From an uncultured Oscillospiraceae bacterium (GTDB taxonomy: Bacteria > Bacillota > Clostridia > Oscillospirales > Oscillospiraceae), in assembly GCA_947626905.1 (NCBI GenBank), contig CANQUE010000009.1, positions 1-53,020 of the forward strand: DNA of 53,020 bases, in the 5' to 3' direction. The translations under genes and the position numbers were made by a program. The notes beneath the pieces are model-generated. The model made no database searches, was not told the origin of the DNA, and saw nothing but the letters and a program-made list of their open reading frames with translations. Shown one piece after another: positions 5,862 through 48,650 of this stretch (the first letter of the stretch is position 1; each line of letters begins with the position of its first letter).

Positions 5862-5889
5862 CGGTGCTATGTACCTCCTCTTGTCCGGC

Positions 5890-6050
5890 ACGGCCGGGAA
5901 GCAAACCGCCCTGCGGTCCCTGCGGTCATTATAGCATATCCGCCGCCAGGCGGGATGCTATAATACGGCATGTTTTGCGGTTCCGGCCTTGGCCGGGAGC
6001 AAAACCGCCTTGGATCATATATGATGACCGCCCTGCGGTCATTATAGCGT
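5890..6050. repeat. Composite palindromic element, copy 1
   Basis: Intergenic block between two divergent genes, with three successive dyads. (1) 5928-5964: ATTATAGCAT-at-CCGCC-gcca-GGCGG-g-ATGCTATAAT. (2) 5972-6005: GTTTTGC-ggtt-CCGGCC-tt-GGCCGG-ga-GCAAAAC. (3) 6024-6042: ATGACCGC-cct-GCGGTCAT, followed by TATAG. A diverged partial unit (CGGCCGGGAAGCAAACCGCC..GCGGTC) precedes at 5891-5917. Related copies occur at 35851-35902 and 45534-45653. It encodes no protein. Confidence 0.85.
5928..5936 (-). promoter_or_regulatory. Extended -10 promoter of SH3 gene (within repeat)
   Basis: On the minus strand this reads TGCTATAAT, a consensus extended -10, about 67 bases before the SH3-protein start. 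The palindrome carries the same TGCTATAAT on the plus strand at 5956-5964. No clear -35 is seen. Confidence 0.5.
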
Positions 6051-6127
6051 GAAACCGCTCCAATTCCAAGCGGAAAGCAAAAAACTTGCAAAAATTTTTT
6101 CAAAAAGGTCGAAAAGCGCTTCTCCAG

Positions 6128-35850: not shown

Positions 35851-35902
35851 GTTTTGCGGTAGTATAATGGCTGCTTGCGGTCATTATAGCATATCCGCCG
35901 CC
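35851..35902. repeat. Composite palindromic element, shortened copy
   Basis: GTTTTGCGGT (35851-35860) joins directly to TATAATGGCTGC-TT-GCGGTCATTATA (35863-35888), whose arms pair fully as RNA with G-U wobbles. The 27 bases 35876-35902 are identical to 5921-5947. The second half of the GTTTTGC hairpin is missing, as if deleted. Confidence 0.8.
35881..35889 (-). promoter_or_regulatory. Extended -10 promoter of yfmF (within repeat)
   Basis: Minus strand: TGCTATAAT, about 97 bases before yfmF. TTTCAA lies 16 bases upstream as a possible -35. The surrounding 27 bases are the same as those before the SH3 gene. Confidence 0.5.
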
Positions 35903-44739: not shown

Positions 44740-45516
44740 ATGAAGGCAGATTTTTCCGTGAAGCAGAGAGTCCGCTACGAGGTGCTGGCCATATGTCTGC
44801 TGGCGCTGGTGGCGGCGGTGGCGCTCCTGGCCCGTCCTCTCGTCCGCCATTCCGAGGCGGAGGCGGAGGACGGCGATCAGATCCAGCAGGCCAGCAGCGT
44901 CCCCGTCCCCATGGAGATCCCGGAGGATATGTTCGAGTGGAAGCCGGGGCAGTATGTCCATGTGGAACGGGGCTCCTCCACCTCCAACGACATAGACGAG
45001 AGCCTTTTCGACGACCTGTCCAAAAAGACCGCCGACGGGCTGGTGACCTGGGCCCAGATGGCCTGGGAAAACCAGTGGGGGTACGTATGGGGCACGTTCG
45101 GCACCGTGCTGGACGAGGATCTGCTGCAATACAAGATCGAACAGTTCGGCAAAGACGTGGAGGATTATGAGGCCATCATCCGGGAGAAATGGATGGGCCG
45201 GCGGACGGTGGACTGCGCCGGGCTGATCAAAAGCTACGGCTGGTATGACCCGGAGCAGCACGGGATCGTCTATTGCCACGGGGACATGCCGGACATCGGC
45301 ACCGACGGGTTCTATGAGGCGGCGCCCGACAAGGGGCCCATCGACACTCTGCCGGAGATCCCGGGGCTGCTGGTATACGCCGATGGCCACATCGGCGTCT
45401 ATGTGGGCGACGGCTGGGCCATCGAGGCCATCTCCCACGCCGGAGGCGTGGTAAAGACCCGGGTGGCGGACCGGCCCTGGACCTACTGGCTGAAAAGCCC
45501 CGCTATCACATATTGA
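44740..45516 (+). CDS. NlpC/P60-like cell-wall peptidase, membrane-anchored
   Basis: A 258-residue protein with an N-terminal membrane anchor (about residues 13-33), a linker, and a C-terminal papain-like domain. The probable nucleophile is Cys159 in RTVDCAGLIKSYGW, and His217 in YADGHIGVYVGDG is the likely catalytic histidine. The GHIGVYVGDGWAIEAISHAGGV stretch is typical of C40-family peptidoglycan endopeptidases. An insertion of about 45 residues separates the two motifs. The NQWGYVWGTFG segment before the Cys matches the usual 'YxWGG' entry. Substrate specificity is unknown. AAAGGGAGG precedes ATG 44740. It is divergent from spoVT, so a sporulation link is possible. Confidence 0.8.
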   Translation: MKADFSVKQRVRYEVLAICLLALVAAVALLARPLVRHSEAEAEDGDQIQQASSVPVPMEIPEDMFEWKPGQYVHVERGSSTSNDIDESLFDDLSKKTADGLVTWAQMAWENQWGYVWGTFGTVLDEDLLQYKIEQFGKDVEDYEAIIREKWMGRRTVDCAGLIKSYGWYDPEQHGIVYCHGDMPDIGTDGFYEAAPDKGPIDTLPEIPGLLVYADGHIGVYVGDGWAIEAISHAGGVVKTRVADRPWTYWLKSPAITY

Positions 45517-45533
45517 AAAATCCAATATTTGTG

Positions 45534-45653
45534 TGTATAATGGCTGCATTGCAGCCATTATACTTTTTATCCCACGCTGTTTTGCTCCCGCCTGCGGCGG
45601 AACCGCAAAACATAGCACGCTGGTCTGCATTGCAGCCATTATACTTTTTATCT
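45534..45653. repeat. Composite palindromic element, copy 2 (inverted orientation)
   Basis: It begins with a 29-bp perfect palindrome, 45535-45563 (GTATAATGGCTGCA-T-its complement). Then comes GTTTTGC-tc-CCGCC-tgc-GGCGG-aacc-GCAAAAC (45579-45611) flanked by CACGCT direct repeats (45573-45578, 45616-45621). A second copy of the first palindrome's right half plus CTTTTTATC follows: 45545-45571 equals 45626-45652, 27 bp. As reverse complement the middle hairpin has the same GTTTTGCGGTTCCG..CGGGAGCAAAAC frame as 5972-6005. The 45517-45696 gap contains nothing else but the asnS ribosome site. Confidence 0.88.
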
Positions 45654-45696: not shown

Positions 45697-47088
45697 ATGA
45701 CCAGAACGAAGATCGCCCAGCTATGGAAGGATGCCGCCGCCCTGGCGGGGGACATCACCGTCTGCGGCTGGGCCCGCACCATCCGCGACCAGAAAAATTT
45801 CGGCTTCATCGACCTGAACGACGGCAGCTCCTTCAAGGGCGTGCAGATCGTGTTTGAACGGGCCGTTTTGGACAATTACGACGAGATCGCCAAGCTGAAC
45901 GTAGGCGCGGCGCTGGTGGTGACCGGCACCCTGGTGCTGACCCCCCAGGCCAGGCAGCCCTTTGAGATCAAGGCGGCCTCCATCGCCGTAGAGGGCGTGT
46001 CCGCCCCGGACTATCCCCTGCAGAAAAAGCGCCACACCGTGGAATACCTGCGCACCATCCAGCATCTGCGCCCCCGGACGAATCTGTTCTCCGCCGCCTT
46101 CCGGGTCCGGTCCGTGGCGGCCCAGGCCGTGCACGAGTTCTTCCAGAGCCGGGGCTTCGTATATGTGCACACCCCCATCATCACCGGCTCCGACTGCGAG
46201 GGGGCCGGCGAGATGTTCCAGGTCACCACGCTGGACATCAACGACCCGCCCCGGAACGAGGACGGCTCGGTGGACTACACGAAGGACTTCTTCGGCAAGC
46301 CCACCAACCTGACCGTGTCCGGCCAGCTGAACGCGGAAAACTTCGCCATGGCCTTCGGCGACGTCTATACCTTCGGCCCTACCTTCCGGGCGGAAAACTC
46401 CAACACCCAGCGCCACGCGGCGGAGTTTTGGATGATCGAGCCGGAGATGGCCTTCTGCGACCTGGAGGGAGATCTGGAGTGCATGGAGGCCATGGTGAAG
46501 TACATCATCAACACCGTGCTGGAGAAATGCCCCCAGGAGCTGGAATTCTTCAACAGCTTTGTGGACAAGGGGCTTTTGGAGCGGCTGCGCCATGTGGCGG
46601 CCAGCGACTTTGCCCGGGTGAGCTACACCGAGGCGGTGGAGCTTTTGAAGCAGTCCGGGGCGGAATTCAAATATCCGGTGGAGTGGGGCATGGATCTGCA
46701 GACCGAGCACGAGCGGTACCTGACGGAACAGATCTACAAAAAGCCCCTGTTCGTCACGGACTATCCCAAAGAGATCAAAGCGTTTTACATGCGCCTGAAC
46801 GACGATGGCAAGACCGTGGCGGCGGCGGACTGCCTGGTGCCCGGCATCGGGGAGATCATCGGCGGCAGCCAGAGGGAGGAGCGGCTGGACATGCTCACCG
46901 CCCGGATGGCCGAGCTGGGGCTCAAAGAGGCCGATTATTGGTGGTACCTGGACTTGCGGCGCTACGGCTCCTGCCGCCACGCCGGCTTCGGTCTGGGCTT
47001 TGAGCGGATGGTGATGTACCTCACCGGCATCAGCAACATCCGGGACGTGGAGCTGCATCCCCGCACCGTGGGCAACGCGGAATTCTGA
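45697..47088 (+). CDS. asnS: Asparaginyl-tRNA synthetase
   Basis: A 463-residue class IIb synthetase that charges tRNA-Asn. The N-terminal OB-fold anticodon domain (about 15-105; [25 protein letters not shown]) is followed by the catalytic domain. Motif 1 lies around [28 protein letters not shown], motif 2 around [27 protein letters not shown] (about 225-250) and motif 3 is [15 protein letters not shown] (about 430-445). The FRAEN..RH pattern and the ending [10 protein letters not shown] identify AsnS rather than AspS. Start with AGAGAGGGACCGAC ahead. A strong terminator follows. Confidence 0.96.
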
Positions 47089-47101: not shown

Positions 47102-47135
47102 CGGGACCGGCACAGAGCCGGTCCCGATCTTTTTA
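47102..47135 (+). terminator. Intrinsic terminator of asnS
   Basis: 10-bp perfect stem CGGGACCGGC / GCCGGTCCCG with a 5-base loop, followed by ATCTTTTTATT. Confidence 0.93.
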
Positions 47136-48650
47136 TTCTTTGCGCCCCTTTACGGTCCGGACCAGCAGCCACAGGCACAGCAGCAGCATCGCCGCCCGGG
47201 GCAGGATGGCCGTGCTGTCCCCGGTCCGGGGAGCTGTTCCTCCCCCGGACCCGCCGGTCCCGGCAAAGGGCAGGGTCCCTCCCGGTCCCACCGGGATGAC
47301 CGGCTCATTCGTGGGGACAGGTTCCTCCGTAGGGACGGGCTCCTCCGTGGGCGCAGGTTCCTCCGTGGGGATAGGCTCCTCCGTAGGGATAGGCTTCTCC
47401 GTGGGGAGAGGCTCTTCCGTGGGGAGAGGCTCCTCCGTGGGGACAGGCTCTTCCGTGGGCATAGGCTCTTCCGTGGGCATGGGCTCATCTGTGGGGCTGG
47501 GTTCCTCCGTGGGGACGGGCTCTTCCGTGGGGATAGGCTCTTCCGTGGGGATAGGCTCCTCCGTGGGGGCGGGTTCCTCCGTGGGGGCGGGTTCCTCCGT
47601 GGGGGTCGGGGCCTGGTAGGAAAACACCGGGTAGCCCCGGTTCAGCCCCCGGCTTCCCGCCGGGGCGAAGGCGCTTCCCAATACGCCAGGGAACGCCTCG
47701 CTCTGCATCCGGGCGGTGTCCGCCCCTTCCACGCCGCCGGGCCAGCCGCCGCTGCCCACGGCGGGCAGGGGCGCCGTCAGTTCCCCGTCGAACCAGGCGT
47801 TTTGCGCCGTGCCGCTCTCCCACGCCCCGGCAAAGGCCCCCGCGTCCGCCTCCCCGGCGGCGATCGGCCCCGCGGCATAGGCGTTGGTCACGGACCCGCC
47901 GCCGATCCGGCCGGCAAAGCCTCCCACATAGATGCCCCGGTCGTTGATATACAGTCCGGCCGTGGAATAGCAGTTGTCCGTCCGGCAGCCGGACAGGGAG
48001 CCCGCCAGCCCCCCGGCGTATACGGGCCCGTCGAAGGAGCCCGCCGCGCCCAGACTGCCCCGGGCGGCGCACCGGTCCATGACCGTGCCCTCCGCCGCCC
48101 CTACCACGATCCCCGCGGCCAGCTCTCCCCCGCCCGGCGGCGCCCACGCCGTGGCGGTGACGTCGGCGGCGACGGTGACGTTGGACAGCACGCAGTCCTC
48201 CGCCCGGCCAGCCAGGCCTCCCACCGTCTGCCGCCCGGAGGCGGACACCGCCGCTTCCAGCCACAGGTCCTGCACCACGGCGTTTTTCAGCGCCGCGAAA
48301 AGACCCGCGCCGCTCCCGCCGGGGCCGGCGGCGACGGTCAGACCCACGATGCCGTGGCCCTGGCCGTCCAAGATCCCCTCGAAGGCCCTGTCCTCTCCGC
48401 CGGGGCCCGATCCGATGGGCTCCAGGGCATAGCCGGTCATATCGATGTTTCCGGCCAGGACCACCCGTCGGCCCCGGAAGCTCTCGCCGGCGCGCACGCT
48501 CTCCCCAAAGGCGATCAGATCCTCCGGGCCGGCCACAGTCAGCTCGGGCGCCTCCAGCGCCTGGGCGGCCGACGGTCCCAGGAGCAGCAGCAGGAGCAAT
48601 ATGAGCAAAAGACCGGCTATGCGGCCGGCCTTTTTTCGTCCGATCTTCAT
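47133..48650 (-). CDS. Repeat-rich surface protein with sorting-type tail
   Basis: A 505-residue exported protein. The signal peptide (about 1-31) has a Leu-rich core ending in GPSAAQA. The extracellular region (about 35-340) holds repeated GLUG-like beta segments (FEGILDGQGHGIVGLTV, VGGLAGRAEDCVLSNVTV, YAGGLAGSLSGCRTDNCYS, VGGFAGRIGGGSVTNAYA), as in adhesin-type beta-helices. Next is a stalk of about 17 PTEEPx hexapeptides (about 350-450). The C-terminus APRTGDS, a hydrophobic stretch and RTVKGRKE fit a non-classical PxTGD sortase signal. It is probably wall-anchored and adhesive. No sortase gene is in the window. GAGGGGA precedes the ATG. Confidence 0.85.
   Translation of the reverse strand: MKIGRKKAGRIAGLLLILLLLLLLGPSAAQALEAPELTVAGPEDLIAFGESVRAGESFRGRRVVLAGNIDMTGYALEPIGSGPGGEDRAFEGILDGQGHGIVGLTVAAGPGGSGAGLFAALKNAVVQDLWLEAAVSASGRQTVGGLAGRAEDCVLSNVTVAADVTATAWAPPGGGELAAGIVVGAAEGTVMDRCAARGSLGAAGSFDGPVYAGGLAGSLSGCRTDNCYSTAGLYINDRGIYVGGFAGRIGGGSVTNAYAAGPIAAGEADAGAFAGAWESGTAQNAWFDGELTAPLPAVGSGGWPGGVEGADTARMQSEAFPGVLGSAFAPAGSRGLNRGYPVFSYQAPTPTEEPAPTEEPAPTEEPIPTEEPIPTEEPVPTEEPSPTDEPMPTEEPMPTEEPVPTEEPLPTEEPLPTEKPIPTEEPIPTEEPAPTEEPVPTEEPVPTNEPVIPVGPGGTLPFAGTGGSGGGTAPRTGDSTAILPRAAMLLLCLWLLVRTVKGRKE
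47308..47607. repeat. 18-bp repeat array encoding PTEEPx
   Basis: About 17 in-frame degenerate copies of an 18-bp unit (minus strand encodes Pro-Thr-Glu-Glu-Pro plus Ala, Ile, Val, Leu, Met or Ser). Variation is mostly at the sixth residue, plus PTDEP, PTEKP and PTNEP variants. Confidence 0.95.

Follow-up and report, generated by a model that had tools for sequence, protein, structure and literature searches.

What kind of element is the composite of hairpins at positions 5890-6050, and how did it come to lie there? We studied it within the window, i.e., the whole analysed stretch of 53,020 nt, which is contig 9 of a draft genome of 2.15 Mb in 87 contigs. An earlier note had placed three copies in the window, at 5890-6050, 35851-35902 and, inverted, 45534-45653. 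All hairpins claimed for 5890-6050 were re-found in the sequence, and the copy at 45534-45653 is indeed inverted. At 35851-35902 the outer hairpin is complete, while the central one has decayed to a fragment. The features are listed below, with the hairpins named H1, H2 and H3 in the order set by the orientation of the central one.

5890-5933, plus strand: decayed extra unit with remnants of the right half of H2 (GGCCGGGAAGCAAACCGCC) and of an H3 and with ATTATA at its end, recognised by comparison with the adjoining full unit.
5928-5964, plus strand: H1, a bulged hairpin with the gene-side ATTATA (5928-5933) in its left arm (fold, sequence).
5967-6009, plus strand: H2, the central hairpin, GGC-AT-GTTTTGC-GG-TTCCGGC..GCCGGGA-GCAAAAC-C-GCC (covariance model, 68.3 bits, E 2.3e-18).
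6020-6046, plus strand: H3, the outer palindrome, whose right arm ATTATA (6041-6046) is the -10 box of the minus strand (sequence).
6041-6069, minus strand: putative host promoter of the minus-strand gene (ORF to about 5861), with -35 TTGGAA (6064-6069), a 17-nt spacer and -10 TATAAT (6041-6046); read from sequence and among the 126 flanks treated below.
35851-35888, plus strand: decayed copy, consisting of the H2 fragment GTTTTGCGG (35851-35859) and an intact H3 (35863-35888) (sequence).
45536-45562, minus strand: H3 of the inverted copy (sequence).
45572-45618, minus strand: H2 of the inverted copy with the inner stem CCGCC-gca-GGCGG (covariance model, 51.8 bits, E 6.9e-13); read from the sequence, its hairpin spans 45576-45616.
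45622-45643, minus strand: a further TATAAT hairpin remnant on the gene side of the inverted copy (sequence).
45513-45541, plus strand: putative promoter of the class II (D, K and N) tRNA synthetase gene at 45697-47088, with -35 TTGAAA (45513-45518), a 17-nt spacer and -10 TATAAT (45536-45541), at which the inverted copy begins (sequence).

That is, both intact window copies follow a predicted promoter (TTGGAA-17-TATAAT and TTGAAA-17-TATAAT). Elsewhere in the window, an 18-nt tandem unit (15 overlapping registers) occupies 47252-47647; since it lies inside the long minus-strand ORF 47133-48650, it corresponds to a six-residue protein repeat.

Units of the family range from 76 to 113 nt, i.e., 76-78 nt where they consist of H2 and H3 and about 110 nt where H1 is present as well. 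The window's H2 at 5967-6009 represents type 1, while type 2 has the arms TACC-AT-GTCGTGC...GCACGAC-C-GGTA. Among 189 distinct copies, the middle-stem arms read GTTTTGC/GCAAAAC in 80, GTCGTGC/GCACGAC in 72, GTCGCGC/GCGCGAC in 17 and GTCTTGC/GCAAGAC in 11; some relatives outside the genus add CTTTTGC/GCAAAAG, CCTTTGC/GCAAAGG and GTTTTTC/GAAAAAC. H3 is a palindrome that starts with TATAAT or TATAAC in most copies and ends in the complement; H1, not found in all copies, is a palindrome with the word ATTATA in its left arm. Units can form tandem arrays of up to seven (contig C80), with a period of about 76-78 nt for type 2 and about 110 nt for type 1, and the inner array boundaries carry (A/G)TT(A/G)TA in 39/50 cases and lack it in 11/50. 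As regards a target site duplication, TATA/ATTATA words flank the element on both sides, and the two copies can differ (as at site C30). Judged by eye, elements start with TACCATG or GCATA and typically end with GCTATTA, i.e., their ends are direct and not inverted, and terminal inverted repeats, the feature of a MITE, were not seen at unit ends. Inspection by eye of the copies without called H3 revealed no gene inside a copy, i.e., no autonomous version. A separate locus of the same genome (L324, contig C37, 2770-3030) holds four tandem units with a period of about 70 nt and a divergent H2 (GTCGCGCGGTTCCCCGCAAGGGGGAGCGCGAC); there, the outer hairpin is a GC-rich palindrome (GATGCGGCGG..CCGCTGCATC) in place of TATAAT.

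For the distribution of the family, we used a covariance model built on H2 (R1) and a broader model (R2). The expectation of further copies in the genome and its relatives was borne out: R1 gave 38 strong matches (E <= 2.6e-8) in the window's own genome, a lower bound because only 150 of 3454 first-look candidates were scored, and it was positive in 24/40 genomes, i.e., 23/25 of the genus and 1/15 other genomes of the order, with zero matches in the genus genomes G003 and G019. The large scans of order, class and phylum ran under stricter filters, by which weak matches were lost. They show a patchy presence in the order (17/295 genomes, 13/149 genera) and one positive among 398 genomes of a phylum sample, which is the window's own genome, with none outside the order; the class scan with R2 found 4/391 genomes, all within the order and including G040, which R1 had missed. 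The exact pattern occurs in at least 106 stretches of named genomes. Among the 80 matches listed, these are mostly rabbit-gut Oscillospiraceae MAGs, with termite-gut and rumen MAGs and one record titled Lachnospiraceae; viral contigs gave no exact pattern match, and no element was found on plasmids. The earlier note recognised no named family, in agreement with Rfam (15), which gave 0 matches in the window at the gathering threshold and 0 at E<=1 on eight loci.

Copies are mostly intergenic. Among 107 of the 129 terminal copies, namely those flanked by 700 nt or more to either side, 87 lie between two called genes and 3 have an empty side. A crude ORF caller placed the other 17 inside an ORF, where some of these are upstream-extended ORF starts. 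Neighbouring genes are mixed in kind, and some copies lie upstream of housekeeping genes. In genome G282, nine of ten copies were inspected; they have one common H2 sequence in differing flanks, and this genome apparently shows a recent burst of copies. A copy in G021 (L325, near 7958) lies upstream of an ORF whose translation resembles ribosomal protein L10, and a copy in G020 (L069) has flanks near-identical to it, such that some insertions seem to be old and inherited. One G282 copy (L340, contig C12, 7215-7263), whose H3 is truncated, abuts an ORF that matches MatE; the words CTTTTGT and ACAAAAG flank this copy in inverted arrangement, and a rearrangement is possible.

Is the folded form what is kept? 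Folded as DNA, the composite at 5885-6055 (171 nt) has z = -4.75, and 0/200 shuffles are as stable. In an alignment of 54 rows, of which 51 are distinct, 95.2% of the cells are paired compared to 81.0% in shuffles, and two-sided changes are found in 129 cells compared to 37.7, spread over 13 of 18 pairs. None of 500 shuffles reached any of five covariation measures and all slid controls were exceeded as well, where this alignment leans towards the structure since it was fitted to the model. With a 16-row MAFFT alignment, the paired cells, the two-sided cell changes and the covariation score beat all 500 shuffles, while the measures that count pairs or types are unremarkable (reached by 22/500 and 116/500 shuffles). 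The joint change of the inner stem from CCGGCC/GGCCGG to CCGCC/GGCGG, from which selection on the folded form had been proposed, is real, and the proposal itself is supported by covariation and fold beyond shuffles.

Two details of H2 depart from regular pairing. The bulged GG is identical in all 51 distinct rows, and a pair by the GG bulge region is T.G in 49/51 rows and C-G in 2, i.e., a wobble and not a Watson-Crick pair is maintained; among distinct H2 sequences, the wobble is present in 82/89. On the opposite strand it would read C.A. This asymmetry also appears when G.T is compared with A.C on the modelled strand, with 23:11 in H1, 16:7 in H2 and 35:16 in H3. The total of 74:34, for which the scoring treats both alike and the near-invariant T.G pair is excluded, has p = 0.00015 when pooled over related sequences. 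The G.T excess together with the T.G wobble points to the modelled strand as the one that matters for folding. This strand is the template strand of the adjacent host promoter; the host transcript therefore corresponds to the other strand.

To characterise the insertion sites, flanks were taken at the outer end of the last unit per array, aligned at the TATAAT of H3 and read as promoter. From 189 distinct copies, 164 have a called H3, 129 are terminal, 127 have a -10 match of at least 4/6 and 126 are distinct and full-length; the 126 flanks stem from these 189 copies, where the full set of loci comprises 218. These unrelated flanks yield a sigma-A promoter logo, with T64 T63 G57% at -35 to -33, T74 G87% at -15/-14, a weaker signal at -17/-16 and almost no information upstream of -36. 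The spacing of TTG is 17 nt in 45 flanks, 16 nt in 9 and 18 nt in 9, with 0-5 for each other value between 12 and 23 nt. A separate set of 28 flanks from another copy type, mostly from other genera of the order, has the exact TTG at 17 nt in 13, at least 2/3 of TTG in 21/28 and TG in 26/28. In G282, six outer ends are readable: four show TTGACA, TTGCAT, TTGACT and TTGCCG at 17 nt, one shows TTGACA at 16 nt, and the sixth, beside a partial further unit, has no -35 word. A flank counts as promoter-like if it has the TG or scores 5 or more at -35; by this definition, 112/126 flanks are promoter-like and 14/126 are not. Most copies examined in bulk hence appear to share one kind of target, i.e., the -10 box of a promoter.

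The genes around the copies show a matching asymmetry. Of the 87 sites between two called genes, 71 have a gene beside H1/H2 that is directed away from the element (p = 2e-9) and 16 one in the opposite direction, while the genes on the H3 side split 42 vs 45 (p = 0.83). Such a bias is as expected if the predicted H3-side promoter drives the gene through the element.

Comparing orthologous regions with and without the element, as the earlier note had advised, proved informative. We compared 20 sites of the window's genome with 1.15 Mb of the relative G001 (genome about 2.4 Mb). Seven sites had both flanks on one G001 contig; at one of them (C20) the flanks are 3.6 kb apart, and the other six (gdhA, C21, C24, C37, C30 and C5) are informative. 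All six are empty in G001, with a -10-like hexamer at the junction. The gdhA site is empty also in G006, G007 and G013 and, because four relatives are empty, insertion in the own lineage is likelier than loss. At C37, filled and empty genomes have the identical word TTTATGCTATAAT on the promoter side. At C30, the host word is AGTATA (TATACT on the promoter strand); the filled site has ATTATA (TATAAT) on the promoter side and AGTATA on the gene side, where the host's CAGTATA is retained. Likewise, the host reads TATACT at C21 and the filled genome TATAAT.

The gene-side boundary was also summarised over 68 first units without H1, the copies not being selected by boundary letters. It reads A57 T76 T76 A53%, followed by T94 (A68/G29) C82 C97 A100 T100%, and is best read as the remains of the host -10 box with their natural variation, followed by the element. 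These remains, together with the empty sites, place the insertion inside the hexamer, with the missing half supplied by the element, whose last H3 bases restore AAT or AAC on the promoter side. Within the hexamer the exchange point could not be narrowed down further, and single copies of G282 do not fit one cut (ATTACA left of L342, ATTTTA right of L341).

We infer the mobility of the family from this comparison of sites and copies, and the reading that we favour as the probable one is a non-autonomous, strand-specific hairpin element that inserts into the -10 boxes of sigma-A promoters. It would fold on one strand and enter the host's -10 hexamer, which is ATTATA on the element strand. As the comparison shows, the promoter-side flank keeps the -35 box, the TGn and the start of the host -10, and the gene-side flank the remains of the other half. 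With H3 contributing AAT or AAC, a -35/-10 pair precedes the element, which therefore sits between promoter and gene; such promoter-preserving insertion would explain the tolerance of dozens of copies. The strand modelled in H2 would be processed as single-stranded DNA by a putative strand transferase acting in trans. In H2, this enzyme would recognise the GG bulge, the AT bulge and the T.G wobble, and its cut would fall at ATTATA, which is able to pair with the TATAAT of the H1 and H3 arms. This logic would resemble the hairpin plus guide of IS200/IS605 and REP elements, with an enzyme that would not be a Y1 transposase.

A Y1 transposase is the mover that the earlier note had suggested, in the form of a REP element tied to a Y1/REP-associated enzyme. 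We ran Y1 (Y1_Tnp) profile searches on the own genome, on 40 genomes (own included), on 9 genomes at E<=10 and on 10 element-bearing genomes. At E<=0.001, 24 of the 40 genomes have no match, among them the copy-rich G011 (51 element matches), G013 (33), G021 (16) and G030 (13); at E<=10, G021 and G030 still have none, and G011 (0.2) and G013 (0.05) show chance-level matches only. No match at E<=0.01 was found in 8/10 element-bearing genomes, i.e., in G282, G306, G073, G054, G118, G030 and G011, which are 90-100% complete, and in G149. No H2 match was found in the fetched flanks of the Y1 loci inspected (C1:27677 of the own genome and nine further ones of the genus), and the Y1 genes of the genus lie, where ends are readable, inside IS200-like elements with other hairpins (L100, one of the nine, is without readable IS ends). 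The proposed tie is not upheld by these results, and a Y1/RAYT transposase was rejected as required mover on the four profile searches. One locus of the own genome (L026, contig C1, 3450-4240) contains an IS200-like element that looks complete, encodes a Y1 transposase of 163 aa and has hairpin ends of its own; the nearby copy of the hairpin family is 1.6 kb away. Relatives of this transposase occur in 17 IMG/VR loci. Its gene was considered as mover of the nearby copy and dropped, as it belongs to an IS with its own hairpin ends. A Pfam scan of ten ORFs beside the G282 array gave radical SAM, SpoIIE, MatE and others and no transposase, and only housekeeping-type ORFs were seen by eye between the array sites of G021. 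The absence of an enzyme is not final because the genomes are draft MAGs. Candidate movers are an HUH strand transferase of another class, a tyrosine recombinase acting on the folded strand, or something else.

How do other explanations fare against this material? That a Y1 enzyme (RAYT or IS200/IS605) moves the element after all, being intermittently present or not captured in the assemblies, would fit an architecture with hairpins inside the ends and a target word kept on one side, as well as the Y1 matches in 9/25 genus genomes; given the copy-rich genomes without a match and Y1 loci with other hairpins and no H2, we regard it as improbable. A tyrosine recombinase could recombine the folded strand, by its TATAAT stem in H3 or H1, with the TATAAT duplex of the promoter, much like attC, and build arrays by repeated integration at a shared core. 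A TATAAT:ATTATA stem is formed by H1 as well as H3, this word recurs at both ends and at most junctions of tandem units, and the bulges of H2 could set strand polarity. However, GTT/AAC is not maintained in the H2 arms (GTCGTGC in 76/189 copies, GTCGCGC in 17/189) and the junction is at ATTATA, outside H2, such that this mechanism seems unlikely, though better placed than a Y1 enzyme. The least probable account, in our view a highly doubtful one, is a cis-acting leader RNA that is kept at transcription starts for regulation and not moved. Strong covariation, the fixed place just downstream of the -10 box and the one-orientation bias relative to the gene would be natural for a leader, but the host transcript is the other strand, on which the near-invariant T.G becomes C.A, and the outer H3 arm is the -10 box itself and hence upstream of the start. 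Mixed neighbouring genes, orthologs without the element and the varying number of array units also speak against it.

A further question is what would be recognised at the target. Under a transcription-directed insertion, the element would enter the -10 box where RNA polymerase has melted the DNA, and rebuild the box; we hold this to be a speculative possibility only. Equally tentative is its corollary that the working promoter and not the word is recognised, with the enzyme acting on a bulged DNA hairpin. TGnTATAAT often marks promoters in GC-rich genomes. Among TGnTATAAT sites, the exact TTG at 17 nt is found in 21/58 with the element vs 10/35 without, and the 45/126 of all element flanks do not differ from the latter either (p = 0.55). 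Since -35 frequencies are alike at both kinds of site, a preference for that sequence alone may suffice, and RNA polymerase targeting as sole explanation is lowered by this control. On the other hand, TATAA(T/C) sites are promoter-like in 88/92 cases with the element vs 157/324 without. For sites lacking TG, 18/22 vs 117/284 score 5 or more at -35 (p = 0.0002), while sites with TG show no significant difference (53/70 vs 25/40, p = 0.19). The two sets are not fully alike in this comparison because the element provides the last half of the hexamer, and the pattern could also arise if insertions elsewhere had been lost. The contrast fits three readings: the target word may include TG, RNA polymerase may direct the insertion, or insertions elsewhere may have been lost.

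Small hairpin repeats are usually described as intergenic passengers. Under the favoured reading of insertion into -10 boxes, this family would enter the promoter core and leave a promoter in place, and could thereby rewire many leader sequences without switching genes off. With the obvious candidate class (Y1) largely excluded, finding the mover could add a recombination activity aimed at the six-base word of many bacterial promoters. The bulge and wobble, conserved in almost every copy, offer a ready binding substrate for an enzyme search.

How does the family compare to known systems? Among the matches listed from open-licence full texts, none describes hairpin elements inserted in -10 boxes. 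REP/BIME elements with their RAYT (TnpA_REP) are alike in short imperfect hairpins, many intergenic copies, tandem arrays and a selected fold; unlike them, several copy-rich genomes have no Y1 match and the element sits in -10 boxes, mostly in one orientation. In addition, the parts of the source consulted give a GT[AG]G tetranucleotide 5' of the REP hairpin foot (PMC6006769), which is found in 0/218 copies here, where the four bases are CCAT in 140, GCAT in 46, TCAT in 19 and others in the rest. For IS200/IS605, the same partial source describes hairpins inside the ends and a target word kept on one side (PMC6006769). These elements and their non-autonomous derivatives share with the family strand-specific end hairpins, the lack of terminal inverted repeats and a target word that is retained at one side, with a matching word at the other end (-10-like at 6/6 sites). 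They differ in that the word here is a -10 hexamer, the unit comprises two or three hairpins in 76-113 nt, most of the element-bearing genomes tested lack the enzyme and the inspected Y1-encoding IS with readable ends do not share those of the family. A MITE of a DDE transposase is unlike the family, which is without terminal inverted repeats.

Integron integrases use a folded attC strand as stand-in for a duplex, with the core boxes GTTRRRY/RYYYAAC; the arms GTCGTGC, GTCGCGC and GTCTTGC, which occur here beside GTTTTGC, depart from these boxes. The BOX elements of Streptococcus pneumoniae are built in modules of stem-loops, and the number of their internal units varies. As far as the source excerpt goes, they are alike in this modularity and unlike in their terminal inverted repeats, which are likened to ISSpn2, with no -10 target mentioned (PMC3049150); BOX is set apart here by description and not by sequence. 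The Correia elements (NEMIS) of Neisseria are described in the excerpts as small, non-autonomous and able to create promoters, with terminal inverted repeats of 24-26 bp and TA at the ends (PMC2229807, PMC3049150). They resemble the family in size, lack of autonomy and promoter creation and differ in the inverted repeats and, within these excerpts, in that a -10 preference is not mentioned. The yeast retrotransposon Ty3 is retrovirus-like and is targeted by TFIIIB to transcription start regions. It is alike in integrating at transcription starts, as an analogy for promoter targeting only; a transcription-directed insertion, if true, would be a bacterial counterpart of such promoter-directed integration. 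Taken together, the family works like a REP or IS200/IS605-type hairpin element, yet departs from each in at least one tested feature.
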